Shown: piece by piece, positions 3,554 to 64,000 of the stretch
Layout: every line of letters begins with the position of its first letter
Position numbering within the stretch: position 1 is the stretch's first letter
Assembly: GCA_040218145.1 (NCBI GenBank)
Contig: JAVJQK010000005.1
Coordinates: forward strand, 1 to 64,000
From: Sandaracinaceae bacterium
GTDB lineage: Bacteria > Myxococcota_A > Polyangia > Polyangiales > Sandaracinaceae
DNA: 64,000 bases
Direction of reading: 5' to 3'
Made by a program: the position numbers and the translations under genes
The notes under the pieces: generated by a model
Database searches by the model: none
Told to the model about the DNA's origin: nothing
The model's input: only the letters and a program-made list of their open reading frames with translations

Positions 3554-3567
3554 AGGGACGATCCTAC
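3554..3567. repeat. short degenerate piece of the palindromic repeat
   Basis: AGGGACGATCCTACC matches the outer 12 bases of the left arm of the dispersed palindrome and then diverges. The same short variant occurs at 31995-32009, and the two share about 17 bases. It lies about 100 bp in front of the ferritin-like gene, not after a gene. Confidence 0.45.
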
Positions 3568-3687
3568 CCAAGTACCCGAGTTCGCAGCAGCAGATGAGGG
3601 CTGGAAACCTGCCCGTGGCGCCGAGCTCCGGTAGGCTGGCTCCGCTCCGGGTGCCCAGCGTTGCGTCCGAGCGTTCATGGAGGTCGA

Positions 3688-4622: not shown

Positions 4623-5048
4623 GTGAACCTCCCCAGCGAGAGCGCGCTGCCGGACCTTCACGTCGTCGCGTGGTCGCGTGGGCACCACGGCGGGGACGGA
4701 GTGGTCGAGGTGCTCACTCTGCCCGAGGACCGCGAGGTGTTGCTGCTCGGCCAGGCGTCCCGCGACGCGAAGCGAGAGGGCGCGGGCTACGTCGTCGACG
4801 ACGCGAGACCACACTCGACACGCTCCCTGCCCGCCTCGGTCGCGTACGAGCTCCAGCGTCGAGTGGAAGCGCTGGCCCTAGAGTGGCCGGAGCCCAAGCT
4901 CGCGCTCGGCAAATCCTCTCGCGGGCTGTGGGTCGCACATCGCGGGATCGAGGTGTCGTTCCTCTGGGAGGCCTGGTCGGGAGACGCGGGGCCACGCGGG
5001 CTGGCCGAGTTGCACGCATGGGTCCGGGCGTTGATCCCAGACGCGTAG
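4623..5048 (+). CDS. hypothetical protein
   Basis: The 141-residue product from a GTG start has no signal peptide or membrane segment, so it is probably cytoplasmic. It is acidic and mixed alpha/beta in character, with a C-terminal helix ending WVRALIPDA. I recognise no domain. It follows the lipoprotein gene by 12 bp and may be co-transcribed with it. Its stop lies 14 bp before a full copy of the palindromic repeat. Confidence 0.55.
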   Translation: MNLPSESALPDLHVVAWSRGHHGGDGVVEVLTLPEDREVLLLGQASRDAKREGAGYVVDDARPHSTRSLPASVAYELQRRVEALALEWPEPKLALGKSSRGLWVAHRGIEVSFLWEAWSGDAGPRGLAELHAWVRALIPDA

Positions 5049-5061
5049 CTCGCCAGCTCGC

Positions 5062-5128
5062 AGGGACGATCCTCGTCATTCGTCAAACTCCGTCCACAGG
5101 AGTTCGACGAACGAATAGGATCGTCCCC
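5062..5128. repeat. palindromic repeat, full copy 1
   Basis: The left arm begins AGGGACGATCCT and the right arm ends AGGATCGTCCCC. The arms pair over about 28 bases around a short loop. A two-base internal mismatch (CG in the left arm against AT in the complement of the right arm) follows the outer 12 bp and recurs in other copies. It starts 14 bp after the stop of the preceding gene. Confidence 0.9.
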
Positions 5129-5190
5129 GAGGCACGGTTCTCCCCATCGGCCGTGTAGAACATTCTCCGACCCAAGCCGTCTCCGTGCCC

Positions 5191-5934
5191 ATGCTCACAC
5201 CCCTGTCTCGCTGCCTCCTCTTTTCAGCCCTCGCCGTCGCGTGTTCATCCGCGCCACCTCGACCCTCGCAGTCGGCGCCGGAGCCCGTGGCGAGCGGGAG
5301 CGCGGACACCGTGCGCGAGGACGTGCGCGAGGAAGCGGCCGAGGAGCCGCCGCCGGCCGACACGCAGCCCGACGAGCCCCCTTGCGCCGGCCGCGCCGGA
5401 GCCGATTGCAGTCGGGAGCACGGGTGCGTGATGGAGCTCCATGTCGGCTGCCGCGAGGCCGTCGACGACTGTGAGCGCCTGGTTCCTGGAAGCGCGGACC
5501 CGGGCCAAGACGGGTGCACGGTCCAGAACCCCGCGTGCGTCTTCCATCCGCGGGCGCACCTCTGCGTCACCTACACCCCCATCACCGAGTGCCCTCCGAC
5601 GCTCGCCGAAGCCCAGGCTCTCCCCGTCGACTGCGAGCTCCAGCGGACCCCCTTCGAGTGCGCCTACGAGGAGGGGGGCGGGGTCACCTTCACCTGCCGC
5701 ACCCCCTCGATGGGTTGTCCGGGAGGCATGGTCCGTCGCCCCGCTCGGCCGGCCTGGCTCGGCGCGCCGACCCACCCTCCAGACTACGCGCCGGACGGCT
5801 GTCCTCTGACCGACCGAGCCCGCCGCTCGCGGTGTCGCGCGCCGCGTACGCTGGAGTGCAGGGAGTGCGCCGGGATCACCCAGTGCGTGCGCGGACACTG
5901 GCAGATGACGAGGCGATTCCCGCCCCGCCCGTGA
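5191..5934 (+). CDS. Cys-rich lipoprotein
   Basis: The 247-residue product starts MLTPLSRCLLFSALAVAC, with lipobox AVAC. A Pro/Ser/Glu-rich linker (to about residue 65) is followed by a domain with about 22 cysteines, including C-x(6-8)-C spacings that suggest EGF- or Kazal-like disulfide knots. A GTG two codons upstream (5185) is an alternative start. The gene is the only one between full repeat copies 1 and 2 and ends 18 bp before copy 2, so the unit looks like a cassette. Function unknown. Confidence 0.75.
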   Translation: MLTPLSRCLLFSALAVACSSAPPRPSQSAPEPVASGSADTVREDVREEAAEEPPPADTQPDEPPCAGRAGADCSREHGCVMELHVGCREAVDDCERLVPGSADPGQDGCTVQNPACVFHPRAHLCVTYTPITECPPTLAEAQALPVDCELQRTPFECAYEEGGGVTFTCRTPSMGCPGGMVRRPARPAWLGAPTHPPDYAPDGCPLTDRARRSRCRAPRTLECRECAGITQCVRGHWQMTRRFPPRP

Positions 5935-5951
5935 GGCCCGCCGTCAGACCC

Positions 5952-6012
5952 AGGGACGTGCCTCGTCATTCGTCGAGTTCGTCGCTGGAGCTCGACGAAC
6001 GAAGGATCGTTT
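5952..6012. repeat. palindromic repeat, full copy 2 (diverged)
   Basis: The copy has the same layout but a diverged outer stem (ACGTGCC in place of ACGATCC, and GGATCGTTT on the right). The inner arms, TCGTCGAG and CTCGACGA, are intact. It lies between two convergent genes, 18 bp after one stop and 11 bp after the other, where it could serve as a bidirectional terminator. Confidence 0.8.
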
Positions 6013-7697: not shown

Positions 7698-8029
7698 CGC
7701 GCTCGGCACCGCAAGCTCCGCGCCAGCGGTCGAAGCCCGGCCGCGGAGGGCCCACTGCCAACCTCGTTGTGCCGCCCGAGCTCATATCGCGAGCACATGC
7801 GCCCCATGAACGAGCCAGAGCCCGCTCCCTCTCGAGAACGGCTCCGCGTGAACCTCCCCGATGTGGCGTCCGCCCGGGGACAGGCTCCCGGGGACGATCC
7901 TCGTCATTCGTCGAACTCCGACCCGGGCGTTTGACGAACGAAAAGGATCGTCCCTGACGCCGTAGGCGGCGCGGACGATCTCCTCTCTCTCCTGCTGCGG
8001 TCCCTGACGTTTCTTGCGAGTCTCCAGCC
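7698..8029. other. 332-bp divergent intergenic region
   Basis: This region separates the vWA-like gene (minus strand) from the potassium channel (plus strand) and must hold both promoters, although I see no clear -35/-10 pair. It contains full repeat copy 3 and a 45-codon open frame at 7797-7934 beginning MRPMNEPEP that runs straight into the repeat. That frame could be the 5' remnant of a gene cut off by the repeat, but it is more likely chance. Confidence 0.5.
7890..7955. repeat. palindromic repeat, full copy 3
   Basis: The left arm GGGGACGATCCTCGTC and the right arm GAAAAGGATCGTCCC pair with the same two-base internal mismatch position as in copy 1. The right inner arm is GTTTGACGA, as in copy 4. 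This is the only full copy in a divergent promoter region and not behind a gene end. Confidence 0.9.
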
Positions 8030-8845
8030 GTGAGCGAGTCCGCCTCTCTCCGCGCCCGCGTGCGCCACCTCTTCGAAGACCCGGTCAGCCCGGCGGGGCG
8101 AGTCGTCGGTTGGACGGTGATGCTCCTGATTATCGCCTCCTGCGTCGCGGTCGCGGTGGAGACCATCCCCACTCTCCCGGGCTGGGCCAAGGTGTGGCTG
8201 CGGCAGTTCGAGTACGTCACTGTCGCGGTGTTCGCCGTCGAGTACGTGCTCCGTGTGGGCTCGGCAGAGCGCCCGCTACGGAAGGCCCTCGAGCCGCTCG
8301 TCCTCGTCGACCTGGCGGCCATCCTCCCCTTCTTCGTGGGCCTCCTCGCCGGCGGGGTCGTCGACCTTCGCATCTTGCGGCTGCTGCGGACGGTGCGCCT
8401 GCTGCGGATGCTCAAGCTCCACCGCTACACCAGCGCGCTCTCGATGCTCGGCGCGATCGTGAAGGGCGAGCGACACAAGCTCGGGTCGTTCCTCCTCGTC
8501 GCCCTCATCGGCATCGTCTTGATGGGCAGCGTCATGTTCTACATCGAGCCCGAGACGTTCGAGAGCATCCCTCACGCCATCTGGTGGAGCGTCGTCACCC
8601 TGACCACGGTCGGCTACGGCGAGACCGTGCCCCAGAGCGCCGCCGGGCGCTTCGTGGCGAGCCTCGTCATCCTCCTCGGGATCGGGATCATCGCCATCCC
8701 GACCGGCATCATGAGCTCCGCGATGGTGGAGTACTACCAGAGCGCGCGCAGCAAGCTGACCTGCGCGACGTGCCGCGTCGGGGCGCACGCCGCGGACGCG
8801 GCCTACTGCCGGGTCTGCGGTAGCGCGCTCTCACGCTCGAGTTGA
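8030..8845 (+). CDS. voltage-gated potassium channel with C-terminal zinc ribbon
   Basis: The 271-residue product forms a six-helix voltage-gated cation channel in the inner membrane. Helices lie at about residues 28-48, 63-80, 92-112 and 152-172. An S4-like segment (residues 117-133) carries Arg/Lys every third or fourth position (RILRLLRTVRLLRML). The pore helix is followed by the potassium selectivity filter TVGYGE (about 197-202), and the last helix spans 212-235. Residues 246-267 contain two CxxC pairs (CATC, CRVC), a zinc-ribbon tail that is unusual for this family and may sense redox state or zinc, or mediate assembly. The start is a GTG. Confidence 0.9.
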   Translation: MSESASLRARVRHLFEDPVSPAGRVVGWTVMLLIIASCVAVAVETIPTLPGWAKVWLRQFEYVTVAVFAVEYVLRVGSAERPLRKALEPLVLVDLAAILPFFVGLLAGGVVDLRILRLLRTVRLLRMLKLHRYTSALSMLGAIVKGERHKLGSFLLVALIGIVLMGSVMFYIEPETFESIPHAIWWSVVTLTTVGYGETVPQSAAGRFVASLVILLGIGIIAIPTGIMSSAMVEYYQSARSKLTCATCRVGAHAADAAYCRVCGSALSRSS

Positions 8846-9018
8846 ACCGCGGGTGCACGCCGAGGGCGGACCGCACCGCAAGCTACCCTTCCGTCTTCAA
8901 GCATTCCTGCTCTAGTGCCCATGTGCTCGCTGTAGCAAGGATGCTGGATACGCAGACTGTCGCAGCCGGGGTAACGTGAGGTCGCTTCTGCCCGGTTCGT
9001 TCATGCGAAGGGTTCTTC

Positions 9019-10422
9019 ATGGCCACCGTGTTCGTCGCCCTGCTCCTCGCCTGCGCTCTCGTCGCCTGTGGGCTCTTGGTCTGGCTCCTGCTGCAGGCGC
9101 GACAACAGCTCGCTCGGTATGCCCCCGTCCGCGACATCGACGAGTGGCGCCAGCAGGCCCACGCGGAGGTCGAGCAGCATCGAGCCGCCACTGTACATCA
9201 GCTCGCGCAGGCGCAATCCGAAGTGGCGATGCAGCAACACGCCCTCCATGAGCAGACGCAGAGTGCGCAGCACCAACTCGCGCAGCTCGGGCAGCAACTG
9301 ACGGGGGGACAGCAGCGTCTCTCTGCGCTCCAGGCCGAGCTGCGATCGGTGGAGGAAGAGCTCGAGTTCCAGTCGTTCGGGTTCTACCGGCCGCACTACA
9401 GCTTCACCGACTCGGAACAGTTCAGGGATGCCCTGCGCCAGGTGCGAGACGCGCAGAAGCAGCTCGTGAAGGCCAAGGGCGCCGCGCACTGCCCCAACGA
9501 CTGGACCGTGGACGGGAACCGCGCGAAGGGTCGGAAGATGATCAACCAGCAGATGAAGCTGATGCTGCGAGCCTTCAACGGCGAGTGCGACGCGGCGATC
9601 GCGAAGGTCCGCTACAACAACATCGCCAAGATGGAGGCCCGGGTCAGCAAGGCCTGCGAGGCCATCAACAAGCTTGGCGAGACGAAGCGCGTCTGGATCA
9701 CCGCCGACTACCTGAACCTCAAGCTGCATGAGCTCTACCTGACGCACGAGCACCATGAGGCGCTCCAGCGGGAGAAGGAAGAGCAGCGGCGCATCAAGGA
9801 CCAGATGCGGGAAGAACAGAAGGCGCAGAAGGAGATCGAGAAGGCGGAGTCGGAGGCGCTCAAGGAGGAGAAGCGCTACGAGGCGGCTCTCGAGCAAGCG
9901 CGCGCAGACCTCGCCAAAGCGAGCGGCGCGCAGCACGAGAGATTCGCCGGGTTGGTCAGCAAGCTCGAGAACGAGCTGAGAGAGGCGCTGGACCGGAAGG
10001 CGAAGGCGATCGCCAGAGCGCAGCTGACCCGGTCGGGTCACGTCTATGTCATCTCGAATCTCGGCTCCTTCGGGGAGGGCGTCTACAAGATCGGGATGAC
10101 GCGCCGTCTGGAGCCGCTCGTTCGCGTCAAGGAGCTGGGAGACGCATCGGTCCCCTTCAGCTTCGACGTCCACGCCATGATCTACAGCGAGGACGCACCC
10201 GCCCTGGAGCGCGCGCTGCACGTCGAGTTCGACGGCCGTCGCGTGAATCGAGTCAACACGCGGAAGGAGTTCTTCCGCGTGTCGTTGGCAGAGGTTCGCA
10301 AGGCGGTCGCCAAGCACCACGGCGTCATCACCTTCGTCACGGTGGCTGAGGCGGAGGAGTACTGGAAGACCGTCGCGATCACCAACGAGGACAGCGGGAT
10401 CGCCGCGGTGGCGGCGTCGTAG
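9019..10422 (+). CDS. membrane-anchored DUF4041 / GIY-YIG (T5orf172) protein
   Basis: The 467-residue product has an N-terminal transmembrane helix (residues 4-27), a Gln-rich coiled coil (30-120), a DUF4041-like segment (125-300, with FGFYRPHYSF near 120-130 and Glu/Lys-rich helices), and a C-terminal T5orf172/GIY-YIG nuclease-like domain (340-440). In that domain VYVISN and VYKIGMT form the two conserved strands, an Arg follows, and EFF lies near residue 417. The family is common in phages and plasmids; its role is not settled and may concern DNA processing or defence. GAAGGG lies upstream of the ATG as a ribosome site. It is convergent with the ATPase gene 48 bp away. Confidence 0.8.
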   Translation: MATVFVALLLACALVACGLLVWLLLQARQQLARYAPVRDIDEWRQQAHAEVEQHRAATVHQLAQAQSEVAMQQHALHEQTQSAQHQLAQLGQQLTGGQQRLSALQAELRSVEEELEFQSFGFYRPHYSFTDSEQFRDALRQVRDAQKQLVKAKGAAHCPNDWTVDGNRAKGRKMINQQMKLMLRAFNGECDAAIAKVRYNNIAKMEARVSKACEAINKLGETKRVWITADYLNLKLHELYLTHEHHEALQREKEEQRRIKDQMREEQKAQKEIEKAESEALKEEKRYEAALEQARADLAKASGAQHERFAGLVSKLENELREALDRKAKAIARAQLTRSGHVYVISNLGSFGEGVYKIGMTRRLEPLVRVKELGDASVPFSFDVHAMIYSEDAPALERALHVEFDGRRVNRVNTRKEFFRVSLAEVRKAVAKHHGVITFVTVAEAEEYWKTVAITNEDSGIAAVAAS

Positions 10423-10470
10423 TCGTACGTGGCCTGCGGCGTTGGCGACATGCCTGTGCACACCGCCGCC

Positions 10471-11916
10471 TCATGGTGTTCCGAAGAACGCGTCCATGGT
10501 CACCGTGGTGAGCCCGAGGCGCTGGGCGTGCGCGTTGTTCTTCACGCCGTAGGTGGTGACCAGCGTGAGGAACACCGTCTTCCTCGTGCCGGTCGCCCGA
10601 CGGAACACCGCGCGCTTTCGCTCGAGCGCGTGGGCGTAGCCCTTGTCGACCACGTAGTCGGTCTCCGAGAACTTCATCTCGCATAGGTTGGTGCTGCGGT
10701 CGGCTCGATCGATGACCAGATCCACCTGCGCGCCTTCGTCGTCCGGATCCAAGGGGCGGTGTGACCAGGGGGCCTCTTCCGTTTCGACGGCGGCGATCCC
10801 CAGCGCGCGCTTGATGGACATGACGTGCTTCAGGCAGAGGCTCTCGAAGGCGAGGCCACTCCAAGCGCGGAAGCGAGGGCTCGCCCGCTTGCGCTGCCAA
10901 GCCCCCTCCCCGCGACCTCGATGCTTCTCGATCCAGGTGAGGTAGAAGAGGGAGTACTCGTCGGCCAAGCGGTAGACGGCGTCCCGCTGATCGTGGCCGA
11001 GCGGCGTGCTGCGCGCGATGAAGCCCGACTCCTCCAGCTCGTCGAGCACCTTCGTGGCCGTCCCACCCGAGACCATGCCCACGGCCTGCAGGAGCTCGCC
11101 CCGTGTGGTCCCCCGACGCCTCGCGGCGAGCGCGCGCACGACCGCTTCGTGACGCTCGGCTCGGTCGAACAGCGAGGCGTAGAGCTGCTCGAATTCGTCC
11201 CGTAGGAGTCCATCGCGGGTGAAGCACGCGCGCTCGATGGCCTGCGCCGCGGACTCGCCCGCCCTCGCTTGCTTCAGGTAGTGGGGCACTCCCCCGAAGG
11301 CCATGTAGAGCTCGAGCGTCTGGTAGTGCCCCAGGTCGACATCCCGTGAGCGAAGATACGCGTCGGTCTCTGCCAGCGTGAAGGGCTCCAGGCGGATCCG
11401 CCGGGTCACCCGGTTGTGGAGCCCGCCCCGTTGCTTGACCACCTTGCGGAGCATCCACGAGGCGCTCGATCCACAGATCACGACGAGCAGCCATTCCTGC
11501 GAAGAAGCCCAGCCGTTCCAGAAGTGCTCGAAGGCGGCGAGGAACCCGGAGCGACGCGTCGCGAGCCAGGGCAGCTCGTCGAGGAACACGACTCGCTTTC
11601 CGGCGCCAGCGGCCGGGCGTGAAGCCTTCAAGTGCGCCTCGAGGAGACGAAACGCGTCCGCCCAGCTGGCCGGCGTCGCGAGCGGGAGCCCCGTTCCGGT
11701 CGCCCTCCCGAGCGCGGTGGTGAAGGCGTCCAGCTGGGACTTCATGTCGCCGGCGTGCGAGCCAGTGAGCTCGAACGCGATGGCCTCGCCGAAGAACTCG
11801 CGGATCAGGAAAGTCTTGCCGATTCGTCGGCGACCGTAGACCGCGACGAGCTCCGGTTCGGCGGAGCGCATAGCCTCGCCCAGCAGGACGCGTTCGGCTC
11901 GACGGCCCACGAGCAT
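10471..11916 (-). CDS. DUF234-type ATPase with PD-(D/E)XK-like tail
   Basis: The 481-residue product belongs to the ATPase_2/DUF234 group of STAND-like P-loop proteins. Walker A is GRRRIGKT (about residues 28-35), Walker B is VVFLDELPWL (about 110-119) and a sensor-like ICGSS follows. A winged-helix region (about 255-320, LQAVGMVSGGTATKVLDEL) precedes the DUF234 domain, where QVDLVIDRADRSTNLCEMKF has the D...E-x-K layout of PD-(D/E)XK nucleases. The substrate is unknown; such proteins are frequent in archaea and mobile regions. The ATG at 11916 follows AAGGTG. The promoter region carries four copies of an AGCCACA motif, so regulation by a dedicated repressor, or autoregulation, is likely. Confidence 0.85.
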   Translation of the reverse strand: MLVGRRAERVLLGEAMRSAEPELVAVYGRRRIGKTFLIREFFGEAIAFELTGSHAGDMKSQLDAFTTALGRATGTGLPLATPASWADAFRLLEAHLKASRPAAGAGKRVVFLDELPWLATRRSGFLAAFEHFWNGWASSQEWLLVVICGSSASWMLRKVVKQRGGLHNRVTRRIRLEPFTLAETDAYLRSRDVDLGHYQTLELYMAFGGVPHYLKQARAGESAAQAIERACFTRDGLLRDEFEQLYASLFDRAERHEAVVRALAARRRGTTRGELLQAVGMVSGGTATKVLDELEESGFIARSTPLGHDQRDAVYRLADEYSLFYLTWIEKHRGRGEGAWQRKRASPRFRAWSGLAFESLCLKHVMSIKRALGIAAVETEEAPWSHRPLDPDDEGAQVDLVIDRADRSTNLCEMKFSETDYVVDKGYAHALERKRAVFRRATGTRKTVFLTLVTTYGVKNNAHAQRLGLTTVTMDAFFGTP

Positions 11917-12016: not shown

Positions 12017-12155
12017 CGTATGATTGCCCAGAAAACGCCTCGATTACGCGTGGGAGCTGGCGCTCCTCTCGACCGAAGAGCCGTCGCGACCCACGACGCG
12101 CCGCCGCACCTGGCCCACGCTCTGCTTGCTGGCCGGATGCTCGCTCCAGACAATC

Positions 12156-12221
12156 GGGGACGATCCTCGTCATTCGTCGAGCTCGGACACAGGCGTTTGA
12201 CGAATGAACAGGATCGTCCCC
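12156..12221. repeat. palindromic repeat, full copy 4
   Basis: The left arm GGGGACGATCCTCGTC and the right arm GAACAGGATCGTCCCC pair through the outer and inner stems. The right inner arm GTTTGACGAATG matches copy 3. It ends 6 bp after the stop codon of the minus-strand gene at 12227, again a 3'-end position. Confidence 0.9.
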
Positions 12222-12226
12222 GATGA

Positions 12227-15607: not shown

Positions 15608-17488
15608 ATGAGGAATACGCTCAATCATGGCATGGCGTTCGTCGCCGCCGTCGCGCTCTGCGCTTGTGGGGGAAGCGGGCCGGACGAAACGGACGCCGGG
15701 ACCGTCGCGGTCGACGGGGGACCTCGGTGCGCGGCCTCGGAGGTCATGTGCGACGACGCGTGCGTCGACCTCCAGACGGATCGCGACCACTGCGGCACCT
15801 GCAGCACGACCTGCGGCACCGGCGAGGACTGCGCGGCTGGCGCGTGCGCGCTGGTGTGCGCCGGCGGAACGGAGCTCTGCGGCGCCGAGTGCGTCGACAC
15901 GGATCTGGATCCGGCCCACTGCGGCGGCTGCGGGGTCGCCTGCGACGCGGGCGAGGTCTGCTCGGCCGGCACCTGCGGGCTCGAGTGCACGGGCGGAACG
16001 ACGGCCTGCGACGGCGCCTGCGTCGACGCGCAGCTCGACCCCGCCAACTGCGGCGGATGCGGCGTGACCTGCGACGCGGGCGAGGTCTGCTCGGCCGGCA
16101 CCTGCGGGCTCGAGTGCACGGGCGGAACGACAGCCTGCGACGGCGCCTGCGTCGACGCGCAGCTCGACCCCGCCAACTGCGGCGGATGCGGCGTCGCCTG
16201 CGGCGCGGGCGAGGTCTGCTCGGGAGGCACCTGCGGGCTCAGCTGTGCCGGCGGAACCACCCAGTGCGGTAGCACCTGCGTCGACGCGCAGCTCGACCCC
16301 GCCAACTGCGGCGGATGCGGGCTGGCCTGCGGCGCGGGTGAGGTCTGCTCGGCCGGGACCTGCGGGCTCAGCTGCGCCGGCGGCGCGACCCGGTGCGGTA
16401 GCGCCTGCGTCGACACGCGGCTCGACGCCGCCAACTGCGGTGGATGTGGAGTGGCCTGCGGCGCGGGCGAGGTCTGCGCCGGAGGGAGCTGCGTCCTCGA
16501 CTGCGTGGGCGGCTCGACGCTCTGTTCGATGATGTGTGTCGACACCGACCACGATCCGGCGAACTGCGGCGGATGCGGGGCCGCGTGTGCGAGCGCCCCT
16601 CGAGCGACGCCGGTCTGCGTGTCGGGCAGCTGCGACTACCTCTGCGACGCCGGCTACGCCGACTGCGACGCGGCGCCGGATTGCGAGACCGACACCCGGT
16701 CCGACCCCAACAACTGCGGCGGCTGCGGCGTCACCTGCGGCGGCGTCTGTTCCGCGGGCATGTGCGTGACGTCGGCGACGTTCAGCTACACCGGGGCTCA
16801 GCAGACCTTCGTCGTGCCCCCCGGCGTGACGTCGATCCTCGCGACGGCCTACGGAGCCCAGGGCGGCTGCAGCCTCGGTGGGCGGGGCGGCGAGGCCATC
16901 GCGCGCTTCCCCGTCACTCCCGGGGAGACCCTCTACGTCTACGTCGGCGGCGCGGGCCAATGTGGCACCCCCGGCATGTTGCCTGGGGGCTTCAACGGCG
17001 GCGGCGCCAAGTACACGACCAGCGGCGACTTCTGGGAAGGCGGCAGCGGCGGCGGCGCCTCGGACGTGCGTCGTGGCGGCACGGCGTTGACCAACCGCGT
17101 CGTCGTCGCGGGCGGCGGCGGCGGGCGCGGCTATGGCGGCCAGGCGGGCGCCGGCGGGGGCCTCAACGGCGCCGACGGCAACCCGACCGGGGGCGGCTGC
17201 GACTCCTTCTGCGCAGGGCACGGCGGCACCCAGTCCGCCGGTGGCGCCGGTGGAGACTGCAACTCCGGCTTCTGCGTGGGGCTCCCGGGGGCCCTCGGCG
17301 TCGGCGGTCGTGGGACCGGCTGCGCCGCGAGCGGCGGCGGTGGTGGTGGCGGCTACTACGGCGGCGGCGGCGGTGGACACTGCTCGGCGGGCGGCGGCTC
17401 GAGTCGCGTCGACTTCCCGGGCAACTCCGGGTTCTCGACGACCGCAGGCGTGCGCACCGGCCACGGCGAGATCACGCTCTCCTACTGA
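15608..17488 (+). CDS. Cys-rich tandem-module protein with glycine-rich C-terminus
   Basis: The 626-residue lipoprotein (MRNTLNHGMAFVAAVALCAC) has eight consecutive modules of about 43 residues (residues 40-390), each with the core CVDxxxDPANCGGCGxxC and a closing GEVCSxGTC. Residues 395-626 are a glycine-rich beta domain beginning FSYTGAQQTFVVPPG and continuing with long GG runs, similar to glycine-rich lectin-like or PE-binding surface domains. Two neighbouring modules are nearly identical at the DNA level, showing recent tandem duplication. A disulfide-rich stalk carrying a surface domain is an inference. The ATG at 15608 is well placed for the signal. Confidence 0.85.
   Translation: MRNTLNHGMAFVAAVALCACGGSGPDETDAGTVAVDGGPRCAASEVMCDDACVDLQTDRDHCGTCSTTCGTGEDCAAGACALVCAGGTELCGAECVDTDLDPAHCGGCGVACDAGEVCSAGTCGLECTGGTTACDGACVDAQLDPANCGGCGVTCDAGEVCSAGTCGLECTGGTTACDGACVDAQLDPANCGGCGVACGAGEVCSGGTCGLSCAGGTTQCGSTCVDAQLDPANCGGCGLACGAGEVCSAGTCGLSCAGGATRCGSACVDTRLDAANCGGCGVACGAGEVCAGGSCVLDCVGGSTLCSMMCVDTDHDPANCGGCGAACASAPRATPVCVSGSCDYLCDAGYADCDAAPDCETDTRSDPNNCGGCGVTCGGVCSAGMCVTSATFSYTGAQQTFVVPPGVTSILATAYGAQGGCSLGGRGGEAIARFPVTPGETLYVYVGGAGQCGTPGMLPGGFNGGGAKYTTSGDFWEGGSGGGASDVRRGGTALTNRVVVAGGGGGRGYGGQAGAGGGLNGADGNPTGGGCDSFCAGHGGTQSAGGAGGDCNSGFCVGLPGALGVGGRGTGCAASGGGGGGGYYGGGGGGHCSAGGGSSRVDFPGNSGFSTTAGVRTGHGEITLSY
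15940..16197 (+). repeat. near-identical 129-bp tandem duplication within the gene
   Basis: The units 15940-16068 and 16069-16197 are in frame (43 codons) and differ by only one to three bases. One visible change is a synonymous G to A, followed by divergence at the module ends. Neighbouring units are more diverged, so this pair is the youngest, or has been homogenised by gene conversion. Confidence 0.85.
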
Positions 17489-28449: not shown

Positions 28450-28456
28450 GCTCTCC

Positions 28457-28524
28457 GGGGACGATCCTCGTCATTCGTCAAACTCCCAGCGCTCGGAGCT
28501 CGACGAGCGAATAGGATCGTCCCC
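28457..28524. repeat. palindromic repeat, full copy 5
   Basis: The left arm GGGGACGATCCTCGTC and the right arm GAATAGGATCGTCCCC pair, with the CG/AT internal mismatch. It starts 8 bp after the stop of the propeller gene and lies between two plus-strand genes. Confidence 0.9.
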
Positions 28525-28577
28525 GCAGCGTGCTTCATCGGGTCAGTTGCCGCCAACTCTCATGATACTCTGCCCGC

Positions 28578-28931
28578 ATGGAGCATTCCTGCCTGCTGTA
28601 CCTGGCCTGCATCGCGAGCCTGCTCACCAGTGGGTGTTTCTCGGGCCCCATGAGCGAGGGCATGCGGCTCGCCCGCGTACAAGACCGAGCCGTCTTCGAC
28701 CTCGACTGCGAGAGCGACCTCGAGGTGCGCATGATCACCCGGAACACCTACGGCGCCGTCGGCTGCGGGCACCGCGCCACGTACGTACTGAGTCGCTGCA
28801 GCGACAACGACTTCGAGACCAACTGCACCGTCGTGCTCAACGGCATCGGTGGCGAGTCGGGTCCGGTCGATGTGCGAGGCCGCCCTAGGCGGGAGAGCGA
28901 CGACGTGCCGGCCACGGCGCCGAGCGACTGA
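28578..28931 (+). CDS. small lipoprotein with GCGxRxxY module
   Basis: The 117-residue product starts MEHSCLLYLACIASLLTSGC (lipobox TSGC). The mature part has the F-D-L-D-C ... AVGCGHRATY core that is shared with the lipoproteins at 12227 and 18702, plus two further cysteines. It is the only gene between full repeat copies 5 and 6. Function unknown. The ATG start is unambiguous because the signal sequence begins immediately. Confidence 0.75.
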   Translation: MEHSCLLYLACIASLLTSGCFSGPMSEGMRLARVQDRAVFDLDCESDLEVRMITRNTYGAVGCGHRATYVLSRCSDNDFETNCTVVLNGIGGESGPVDVRGRPRRESDDVPATAPSD

Positions 28932-28944
28932 CCTCCGAGTTGCC

Positions 28945-29011
28945 CCGGAACAATCCTCGTCCCTCGTCGAGCTCACGCGCCGTAGTTCGACGAATGAATA
29001 GGATCGTCCCC
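28945..29011. repeat. palindromic repeat, full copy 6 (diverged left arm)
   Basis: The left arm is mutated (GGAACAATCCTCGTCCCTCG) but the right arm is canonical (GAATAGGATCGTCCCC). It starts 14 bp after one stop and ends 17 bp from the convergent gene's stop. Confidence 0.85.
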
Positions 29012-29027
29012 GTGGATGCAGGGGCCG

Positions 29028-31974: not shown

Positions 31975-31994
31975 CCCCCGGCGACCAGCGCACC

Positions 31995-32009
31995 AGGGAC
32001 GATCCTACC
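31995..32009. repeat. short degenerate piece of the palindromic repeat
   Basis: AGGGACGATCCTACC repeats the same variant found at 3554, with identical flanking CAGGG...CCC. It lies 21 bp after a stop codon. Confidence 0.45.
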
Positions 32010-36460: not shown

Positions 36461-36479
36461 GCGACGAACAGGATCGTCA
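36461..36479. repeat. palindromic repeat, degenerate right arm
   Basis: GCGACGAACAGGATCGTCAC resembles the right arm (GAACGAATAGGATCGTCCCC) with a deletion of AAT and a mutated end. It lies 18 bp after the Usp gene and abuts the truncated gene copy at 36477. Confidence 0.5.
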
Positions 36480-36668
36480 CTCGCGCAGCTGCTCGCGAAC
36501 GTCTGGATCCGTCATGCGCAGGATCAGCAGCCACTCGCTCCCGTCGGGGAGGTCGGGGGACGGGTGGACCAACCCGAGGAGCGAGAGCCCGAGCACGAGC
36601 TCGATCGACGCCCAGCGCCTGCACCAGTATCGCCCCCACTCGCGCCGCCGAAGGAGCTCGCGCGACAC
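36477..36668 (-). pseudogene. truncated copy of the membrane protein gene at 43430
   Basis: This 63-codon open frame matches the C-terminal half of the 142-residue membrane protein encoded at 43430-43858 with high DNA identity over 36478-36675. The first 79 residues, including the first hydrophobic helices, are missing, and 17 codons near the end are deleted in frame. It begins at GTG and ends at the homologous stop. The adjacent repeat arm is present at both loci, so the segment was copied together with it. Expression is doubtful. Confidence 0.75.
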
Positions 36669-36693
36669 GGCGAACTGACGGCTAGCTCATGGC

Positions 36694-43056: not shown

Positions 43057-43083
43057 GCACGGTCGACGGGCGCGAGGTCGCCC

Positions 43084-43120
43084 GGGGACGATCCTCGTCA
43101 TTCGTCAAACTCCGAACGCT
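43084..43120. repeat. palindromic repeat, left half (L2)
   Basis: GGGGACGATCCTCGTC and AAACTCCGAACGCT match L1 at 34434 exactly over the shown bases. The following GGAGCTCG could be the first bases of a right arm, but it diverges at once. Confidence 0.85.
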
Positions 43121-43218
43121 GGAGCTCGTGAGGACGTTCTTGCGGCGGCGGGCACAGGGAGCGTAGTGCCGACGTGCCCGACCTGTTGACACTCCAGATC
43201 GCGTACTTGAGGTCGCCT

Positions 43219-43253
43219 GGGGACGATCCTCGTCATTCTTCAAACTCCGAACG
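43219..43253. repeat. palindromic repeat, left half (L3)
   Basis: GGGGACGATCCTCGTC is followed by ATTCTTCAAACTCCGAACG, one base different from L1 and L2. Its reading frame continues without a stop into the small hydrophobic frame that ends at 43360. Confidence 0.8.
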
Positions 43254-43384: not shown

Positions 43385-43414
43385 GTAGTTCGACGAACGA
43401 ATAGGATCGTCCCC
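43385..43414. repeat. palindromic repeat, right half (R1)
   Basis: GTAGTTCGACGAACG and AATAGGATCGTCCCC form a canonical right arm without a left arm next to it. It lies 15 bp past the stop of the minus-strand membrane gene at 43430. Confidence 0.85.
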
Positions 43415-43429
43415 GTGAGCTCTCGAGCC

Positions 43430-43858
43430 TCACTCGTGCAGCAGCTCGCGCACGTCTGGCTCCGCCATGCGCCTCCGCAGCCAGATCTTCGCTCCGTACG
43501 CGGGAGCCGCGACGATGATGTTCAGGATCAGCAGCCACTCGCTCCCCTCCGGGATGTCGGGTGACGGGTGGACCAGCCCGAGGAGCGAGAGCCCGAGCAC
43601 GAGCTCGATCGACGCCCACCGGCTGAACCAGTATCGCCCCCACTCGCGGCGCCGGAGGAGCTCGCGCGACACGGCGAACGGGAAGAGCGCGACGATCGCC
43701 GCCATCGTCGCGCCGATGGCGAACAACCAGAGCGGCCGTTCTCCGGGCGCGTAGGACGTCGCGACGACACCCGCGATCTCGGCCGCCAGGAGCACGTGGA
43801 CGCCGGCGAAGAACAACGCCGCCAGCCGCGGTATCGCCGCCGCGTCCCAGCGCGCCAT
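43430..43858 (-). CDS. small integral membrane protein
   Basis: The 142-residue product has four hydrophobic helices (about residues 12-32, 43-65, 82-98 and 106-122), an Arg-rich internal loop (RELLRRREWGRYW) and an Arg-rich C-terminus. It is the full-length parent of the truncated copy at 36477. The ATG at 43858 overlaps the stop of the upstream OmpA-like gene (ATGA). Family unknown. The pair probably forms an envelope unit. Confidence 0.75.
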   Translation of the reverse strand: MARWDAAAIPRLAALFFAGVHVLLAAEIAGVVATSYAPGERPLWLFAIGATMAAIVALFPFAVSRELLRRREWGRYWFSRWASIELVLGLSLLGLVHPSPDIPEGSEWLLILNIIVAAPAYGAKIWLRRRMAEPDVRELLHE

Positions 43859-58767: not shown

Positions 58768-59548
58768 GCTACGTCCACGGAATCGACAGCTACAATCGCG
58801 CCAACCTCCATGTGGATCCGTCGAATGGACACCCCATCTGGTCCGGACACGGCGGCGAGCCGGCCTGGAGTTACGCCAGCCGACGATACGGGGGGCCGCC
58901 ACCGTTCTGGGGGCGCTACCTGAACCCGGACCCGCGCCGCAGCATCGACCGGTCCGAGGTTCGGTTCATTCGGAACGCCTCAGGTGGGGGCTGCCGGCTT
59001 CTCCTCGTCTACAACGGTCTCTCTTCACGAGAAGTACTCGGTCTGCGGGGCGCTGCCGCGCGGGACCGTGGACGCCGCGCCGCGGCGCCTCGGCCGCGCT
59101 GAGGTACGTGAGCTCTTCGATCCCCGTTCGACAGCTCGTGGCCTGTGACGAGGGCGAGCATCACCCCGACCTACCCCGTGCTGCCGCCGAGCCGCACCCG
59201 GACTGCGTTCCGACGCCCGACAGCAGCGCTACTACAGCCGCTCTCGGACACGACTTCCTGAGCGCGAGACGAGCGCATCACTCGTGCCGCCGTGACCGAG
59301 CGTCAAATCGGCGTTCGAGCGAGCGGCCTTCTCCGTGAACGATCCGTTTCCCTATCGAGCCGCGAGAGCGCTCTGCCCACGGGGCGAGGCTGTCCATTCG
59401 CGCTGGTTCGGGTCGGGGCTTGCGATGGCCGGTCGTCGTGCGCGCACCGCGCTACATCGAGCCGAACGCGACGTACGCGATCTGCTGCCGCGTCGAGGAG
59501 AAGTGGGCGGCGGGCGGCGTGAACAACTTCAGCCCAACTTGTCGCTGA
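58764..59548 (+). pseudogene. decayed DUF1906 (glycoside-hydrolase-like) gene
   Basis: From ATG 58764 the first frame carries the DUF1906/Rv2525c-type start: GIDSYNRAN, PPFWGRYLNPDPRRSIDRSEVRFI and LLLVYNGLSS. It then runs into an Arg-rich non-homologous tail and stops at 59102. Downstream, in other frames, recognisable pieces remain; the last reads WPVVVRAPRYIEPNATYAICC and ends RVEEKWAAGGVNNFSPTC at 59548. At least two frameshifts separate the pieces. The start overlaps the previous gene's stop (ATGA). Family members bind sugars or cell-wall glycans. The gene is likely dead. Confidence 0.65.
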
Positions 59549-63246: not shown

Positions 63247-63274
63247 ATTTTGACGAACGAATAGGATCGTCCCC
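63247..63274. repeat. palindromic repeat, right half (R2)
   Basis: TTTTGACGAACG and AATAGGATCGTCCCC form a canonical right arm without a left arm. The bases that follow, GACGCTCGGCCCCGCG, are shared with R3 apart from one change, so R2 and R3 are direct repeats of about 40 bp. Confidence 0.85.
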
Positions 63275-63340
63275 GACGCTCGGCCCCGCGAAGCGCGAAC
63301 GTCTTGTCGGACGGGAGCAGCCCGCTGTACGTTGCGCGCC

Positions 63341-63846
63341 ATGCGTGAACGCGACGCCGTGCGAGGGGCGCTCGCCTCGGCGGCGATGTGGGTGCTGTTC
63401 CCCGTCCTCGCGAGCTGCGGGGGAGCCGCAGCACGGCCGGCGGCCGAAACGACCGCGCCACGTCGCGGATTCGCGCAGGTGGCCGAGGGCGAGGGGGAAG
63501 AGGCCGGGCGCGACGGCGAGCAGGGTGGGGGCGACACGCTCTCCCGCGCGGACCTCGAGACGCTGGCGGCGGCGCTCGAAGAAGACACCACGTGCCAGCG
63601 GGGCGACGCCGCGTCGTGCCTGCGTCGCGGGGACGCGCAGCGGGCGTCGCTCGAGGGGGATCCGCCACCCGACGTGTGGAGATCGACGCGGTCGTGGAGT
63701 ACATCCACGGCTGCCTGAGCGGCGTCGCGACGAGCTGCACGATGGCCGACTGGGCTCGCGTCGGCCGGTACTACGCACGCGCCTGCCAGCTCGGGCTCCC
63801 GAGCGGCTGCGAGCGAGCCGAGCAGCTGCTGCGTCCGACCGAGTGA
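63341..63846 (+). pseudogene. frameshifted lipoprotein with Sel1-like C-terminus
   Basis: From ATG 63341 the product starts MRERDAVRGALASAAMWVLF and has lipobox LASC, a linker and a Cys-rich part (CQRGDAASCLRRGDAQRA). Near 63670, in a CCCGACGTGTGG stretch, the frame shifts by one base: the first frame runs out at 63718, and the second continues VEIDAVVEYIHGCLSGVATSC..ARVGRYYARACQLGLPSGCERAEQLL to a stop at 63846. The C-rich alternation matches Sel1-like repeats. It is bracketed by right halves R2 and R3 of the palindromic repeat. Sequence error or real decay. Confidence 0.65.
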
Positions 63847-63871
63847 TCGACGAACGAATAGGATCGTCCCC
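63847..63871. repeat. palindromic repeat, right half (R3)
   Basis: TCGACGAACG and AATAGGATCGTCCCC. It begins one base after the stop of the frameshifted lipoprotein gene. The last 129 bp of the window after it show no supported gene. Confidence 0.85.
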
Positions 63872-64000
63872 GAGGCTCGGCCCCGCGTCGCCGCCTGACG
63901 ACGCGGTATCGGCGTCCGTGCGGGTGACTCGACCTTTGGGACCGAATCGTGGCCGAGCACGGCGAGTCCGAGAGCTGAACGGCCCCCCCACGACCCGAGG

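Follow-up and report, generated by a model that had tools for sequence, protein, structure and literature searches.

Dispersed TIR-type repeats and cassette-like gene turnover between two strains of a Sandaracinaceae bacterium

When a single gene lies exactly between two copies of a palindromic repeat, does the repeat carry the gene, or do the two only share a place? The question is raised by the first 64,000 nucleotides of contig C5 (C5:1-64000, hereafter the window) of a Sandaracinaceae genome of 11.06 Mb (G000), where a gene for a Cys-rich lipoprotein-like protein of 249 aa (5185..5934, plus strand, no Pfam match) stands between an inverted pair, or TIR doublet (copy 1, 5061..5129, ssDNA fold z -6.9), and a degenerate inverted pair (copy 2, 5951..6012). 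A first-pass annotation had read such palindromes as recombination or transposition sites carrying passenger genes, and a single lipoprotein gene is indeed found here and again (28578..28931, plus, 117 aa) between copy 5 (28456..28525) and copy 6 (28945..29012, left arm degenerate). Two further proposed units held in part. The HPF/Usp operon does have a single repeat on one side (L1, 34433..34460, minus), but the right arm placed near 36461 is a very weak, shortened arm-like sequence (36464..36479, plus; GACGAAC-AGGATCGTC; GACGAACAGGATCGTC) without a match in a repeat scan allowing up to 8 mismatches. Single repeats at 63248..63275 and 63845..63872 (both plus, both also in the conspecific strain introduced below) do enclose a frameshifted lipoprotein gene, but the other strain has this segment at 99-100% identity, so that the unit is not strain-specific. 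Single-gene spacing was dropped as evidence, since three single-gene intervals among nine repeat sites and some 50 gene gaps give P ~0.14, a value resting on an approximate gene count.

The annotation had taken the palindrome as the basic unit. Alignment of 72 copies shows instead that the unit is its 30-nt half (CGGGGACGATCCTATTCATTCGTCAAACTC on the G-rich strand, with variants), the conserved part being 30 nt (GAGTTTGACGAAYGAATAGGATCGTCCCCG) and the flanks mostly unrelated, and that a palindrome consists of two units head to head with a gap of 4-14 nt. About 75 copies are spread across many contigs of G000; a genome scan with at most 2 mismatches returned 73 matches against 0 for a reversed control, and the number of repeats is far above chance. 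The conspecific genome holds about 59, a genome of a sister genus (G004) holds 7 of a variant, and the remaining genomes of the bacterial family stay at background level. Besides inverted pairs, singles and tandem clusters are also common. According to a crude gene caller, 55 of 59 repeat sites are intergenic, the gene gaps concerned being 20 convergent, 22 tandem and 8 divergent, and the repeats often lie directly 3′ of stop codons; this placement, with few copies in divergent gaps, is usual for TIR/REP elements. Intact inverted pairs fold strongly as ssDNA (z -4.4 to -12.5).

The window also contains repeated sequences of other kinds. Two 162-nt stretches (36514-36675 and 43518-43679) are 93% identical, each lying near a repeat or repeat-like sequence, and tandem 129-bp (43-codon) repeats with many Cys codons occupy 15749-16564. 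The 141 nt at the contig start (1-141) have near-copies on contigs C52 and C128 (97-99% identical), with a partial copy at a contig end of the conspecific genome, and are perhaps a small mobile element. A 37-nt repeat (ACCGCCCTTGTCACAGGCCCCGGTTCGGGTCTTGCCC) at 59532, 61885 and 63163 resembles DNA lying downstream of a Y1-like multicopy gene in locus L014, and may thus be another transposase-linked repeat family.

A search for GGGGACGATCCT together with the letters downstream of it places the 30-nt unit in a superfamily in which the outer GGGGACGATCCT is constant and the core varies (TTCATTCGTC, CCCATCTACCC, TTCGAACATTCG, TTCAAGAATTC and others), the inner end often being AAACTC. Transposases flanked by close variants were reached by starting from a tyrosine transposase encoded on contig C3 and searching for its relatives. 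Contig C87 of G000 bears a 324-codon frame for a Y1 transposase between exact 31-nt inverted copies of CGGGGACGATCCTACCCATCTACCCAAACTC, an arrangement also present at the same locus in the conspecific strain, and a CCC-subfamily repeat of the window (GGGACGATCCTACCCAAGTACCCGAGTTC, 3555..3586, plus) is similar to this TIR. In G004, contig C150 bears a Y1 transposase between exact 31-nt inverted copies of AGGGGACGATCCTCGTCATTTCGTCATTCTC, a type that is also the dispersed repeat family of that genome and has the first 19 letters of the window's left arms (GGGGACGATCCTCGTCATT) in common with them. Two close subfamilies thus have a transposase; none was found flanked by the window's own TIR variant (TTCATTCGTC). 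The HUH and Tyr residues are invariant in five transposase proteins compared, and matches to the NCBIfam model of REP-associated tyrosine transposases (NF047646) are weak and consistent, with E-values of 6e-4 to 4e-9 that fall below the cut-off; a C-terminal helix-turn-helix is only suggested, by a weak HTH_26 match (E 0.25) in one protein. Numerous transposases of this order have their own inverted repeat starting with GGGGACG, and position 7 of GGGGACGA is G, not A, in almost every copy and in the majority of transposase TIRs of the order. By sequence likeness, the repeats of the window are predicted to be TIRs that belong with HUH/Y1 transposases of the 'TIRYT' kind.

Two other genes were rejected as the cognate transposase: an IS200-like gene on contig C113, whose flanking repeat differs (GGGGACGCTAGGTTGACTTG), and a HUH gene (417 aa) flanked by repeats in L051, which is a member of a multicopy family. 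G000 contains 30 matches to that HUH-type protein family, a good number of them at the ends of contigs, and the Pfam Y1_Tnp match of the family is sub-threshold. Apparently corresponding tyrosine transposases on contig C3 of G000 (L135) and contig C4 of the conspecific strain (L136), with 64% protein identity, have different inverted repeats (GGGACGGTGTTTACTTGT vs AGGGGACGGTGTTCGGTTGTTAAGTTCCGGTC). In G004, an IS200-type element (L103, C124, ~1327-1360, minus) abuts half a palindrome of the repeat family, the other half of which is missing.

Inverted TIRs around a Y1 transposase gene, together with dispersed copies, correspond to the TIRtrons or TIRYT (Di Nocera 2013, PMC3733652), whose transposases form subclass 2.1 TnpA-Y1 (Quentin 2018, PMC6006769). 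With these elements, as the relevant sections of the two papers present them, the family shares the GGGGAC beginning and dispersed copies that occur as singles, dimers and clusters, and two close subfamilies add inverted copies bordering a gene for a Y1 transposase, whose C-terminus is probably extended. The family differs in its seventh base, which is G here and A in the published GGGGWSAS, and in that no transposase was found for the exact window subfamily; those sections, moreover, do not describe breakpoint enrichment or gene turnover. REPINs and their RAYTs (Bertels and Rainey 2011, PMC3116915) are similar in their hairpin-folding inverted doublets, adjoining singlets and intergenic position, and in asymmetric doublet loss, case M below recalling the reported REPIN excisions. 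However, the window repeats have no GTAG/GTGG tag at either consensus end, the unit ends in GGGGACG, and the family numbers tens of copies, whereas REPINs number hundreds. CGTC-tagged REPs (Di Nocera 2013) likewise contain CGTC and are mostly inverted dimers, but their CGTC is terminal and unpaired, whereas here it is internal (ATCGTCCCCG). Each of their units has an 8-9 bp stem and a 4-5 nt loop, whereas folding the TIRs of the C87 and G004 transposases singly gives no strong ssDNA structure and a stem of at most 5 bp; and no transposase genes are reported for them, whereas here transposase genes carry the repeats.

If the repeats mark sites of gene exchange, related genomes should show empty sites, and such pairs, for which the first-pass annotation had proposed to look, were found between G000 and G076, a conspecific MAG that is only 84% complete and whose compared loci mostly show 95-99% identity. 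Four cases are empty-site pairs (A, B, C and G), and in two (F and K) a repeat stands in place of a gene. In case A, the window has one repeat (43388..43415, plus; the neighboring singles at 43083..43110 and 43218..43245, both minus, are also in G076), and G076 has a degenerate repeat, a 209-codon SUKH-like gene and a repeat; the present/absent stretch near 43.4 kb is 0.65 kb, and its two repeats agree in ~20 of 28 letters. In case B, palindrome, lipoprotein gene and palindrome (28456-29012) stand against one palindrome in G076, and the window sequence without a G076 match runs on to 30904. The last base of copy 5 is the indel boundary; the left side of the G076 palindrome continues that of copy 5, its right side and right flank resemble those of copy 6, and its center fits neither G000 copy. 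In case C, 1328 bp of G076 contain an FGE-sulfatase lipoprotein gene between a palindrome and a degenerate repeat, and correspond to a truncated CCC-subfamily repeat in the window (31994..32009, plus). Case G, outside the window, has one repeat in G076, which in G000 is split around an HTH and nucleotidyltransferase gene pair; the insert includes a further full repeat, 7 bp (GAACGGG) occur at both junctions, and the two repeats have only short stretches in common. F and K swap gene for repeat without flanking repeats, a 1.36-kb gene-bearing stretch of G076 corresponding to a palindrome in G000 (F) and a 0.56-kb gene-bearing stretch of G000 to a single repeat in G076 (K); in K the last codons of the gene persist in G076, which marks a loss in that strain. 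In case M, a whole palindrome of G076 is represented in G000 by GGGGACGATCCTA alone, in case L a 4.7-kb repeat-bearing block of G076 is missing in G000, and in case E G000 has a deletion that lies 22 bp from a repeat and apparently cuts into a gene. Polarity is clear for K alone, E being less so. Between two conspecific strains, entire genes are thus gained or lost exactly at repeats of this family. Assembly collapse of repeats is judged an unlikely source of the empty sites, because the flanking repeats in A and G share too few exact letters.

Conserved gene order without empty sites, which was to count against the annotation's proposal, is only part of the picture: most sites and gene orders are common to both strains, with ~25 repeat sites agreeing in place, yet empty-site pairs are present. 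The unit that raised the question (5062-6012) is itself in both strains, its lipoprotein-like gene at the same position with 96-97% identity and copy 2 degenerate in each, and synteny with G076 breaks at 5039, 22 bp outside copy 1. Copy 4 (12155..12222) is also in G076, and copy 3 (7889..7956) lies within a 2.7-kb block (7782-10488; an ion channel gene and a DUF4041/T5orf172 gene) that G076 lacks. L022 and L034 both show a spacing of 975 bp, which was taken as coincidence, the flanks being different in L022 and a tandem duplicate in L034.

For indels of at least 100 bp, 9 of 32 breakpoints counted on G000 and 9 of 30 counted on G076 fall no more than 30 bp from a repeat, the same events seen from two sides and hence not independent. 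Shifted repeats predict 0.8, and repeats re-placed in intergenic DNA only predict 2.4 (G000) and 2.2 (G076; p=0.0005 each), an enrichment of about fourfold even within intergenic DNA, to be read with the fact that the loci were picked for containing repeats, which permutation within loci compensates only in part, and that gene calls were crude. The window alone gives 3 of 14 (expected 0.3, p=0.005), a count that includes the break at 5039, added by hand.

Cases A, B, C and G fit two routes, a deletion between two repeats or a repeat-gene unit becoming inserted in a single repeat. On the second, a Y1 transposase would handle two TIRs and a gene as one single-stranded excising and inserting unit, often entering an existing TIR. 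This accords with repeat-gene-repeat stretches whose empty site is one repeat in A, B and G and a truncated repeat in C, with the GAACGGG on either side of insert G, and with accessory-type cargo such as the SUKH-like gene and the HTH/nucleotidyltransferase pair, whose relative in G004 is non-syntenic and without common neighbors, so that some cargo is probably horizontally mobile. We nevertheless consider it unlikely: a search of both strains for the differing genes (A, B, C, F, G, K) found each once, in one strain only and none at another locus, with G076 only 84% complete; F and K lack flanking repeats, no target duplication is shown outside G, no transposase was found with the window's TIR variant, and the majority of repeat sites are fixed between strains. 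Quite unlikely, too, is its fullest form, a Y1-HUH cassette system moving TIR-flanked accessory genes or toxin-antitoxin-like pairs single-stranded into existing TIRs, in parallel to integrons with a different enzyme. True integron cassettes, in which the palindromes would be attC sites served by an integron integrase, are highly improbable. Gene-plus-imperfect-palindrome units and accessory cargo look similar, but the best match to the integron integrase model reaches 85 bits against a cut-off of 265, the copies are scattered across many contigs and include single halves, and the attC core RYYYAAC...GTTRRRY is absent, the palindrome ending in CGGGGACG...CGTCCCCG (GGGGACG/CGTCCCC) and its inner GTTTGAC misfitting GTTRRRY.

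The repeats might also be non-causal, with repeats and gene-content differences both gathering in tolerant intergenic DNA of a large genome and alleles being exchanged by homologous recombination in the flanks. The many sites common to both strains, several gene-size indels away from repeats, the boundaries of cases D and E off the repeats and the non-significant single-gene spacing are all compatible with this, but the fourfold excess persists within intergenic DNA and the junctions of A, B, C, G and M fall inside a repeat, which leaves this reading improbable as well.

We therefore favor, as the probable explanation, that the 30-nt units are dispersed TIRs of the TIRYT kind, that deletion and short-repeat recombination use them as junctions, and that gene turnover follows from this. 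The copies would be TIRs of HUH/Y1 transposases, solo or in REPIN-like inverted pairs, and are mostly intergenic; where several lie close together they would serve as such junctions, aberrant transposase cuts perhaps offering a further route, and single genes between two repeats would therefore be gained or lost as units, leaving one repeat or a truncated one. We infer a causal role of the repeats in the breakpoints and, as the usual route, deletion or short-repeat recombination, not the transposition of dedicated cassettes; the gene loss in K, the apparent cut into a gene in E, and cargo found at one site in one strain only favor this junction reading and make transposase-driven carriage the minority reading. 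Against it, the likeness of the repeats in A and G offers little for homologous recombination, the center of the G076 palindrome in B fits neither G000 copy, the G004 relative of the G pair hints at horizontal gain, no transposase was found with the window's TIR variant, and most cases are without clear polarity. Of the annotation's proposal, the part that sees the repeats as recombination sites is supported, with deletion added here, by the empty-site pairs, the breakpoint enrichment and membership in a transposon-end family; active carriage of passengers is not shown, given the fixed sites, single-locus cargo, the remnant in K, the presence of the unit 5062-6012 in both strains and the absence of an integron integrase passing the cut-off, and nothing demonstrates a dedicated gene-cassette machine.

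TIRYT-type repeats are thinly described in the literature, and a literature search on REPs in myxobacteria returned nothing relevant. The best reading is that these repeats, of the TIR/REP type and scattered ends of an unusual kind of bacterial transposon, give rise to cassette-like gene turnover; a natural pair of strains in which several junctions are clean opens the mechanism to testing. If the repeats are preferred junctions of gain and loss, a transposon end of 30 nt would help to shape the accessory genes of very large genomes.
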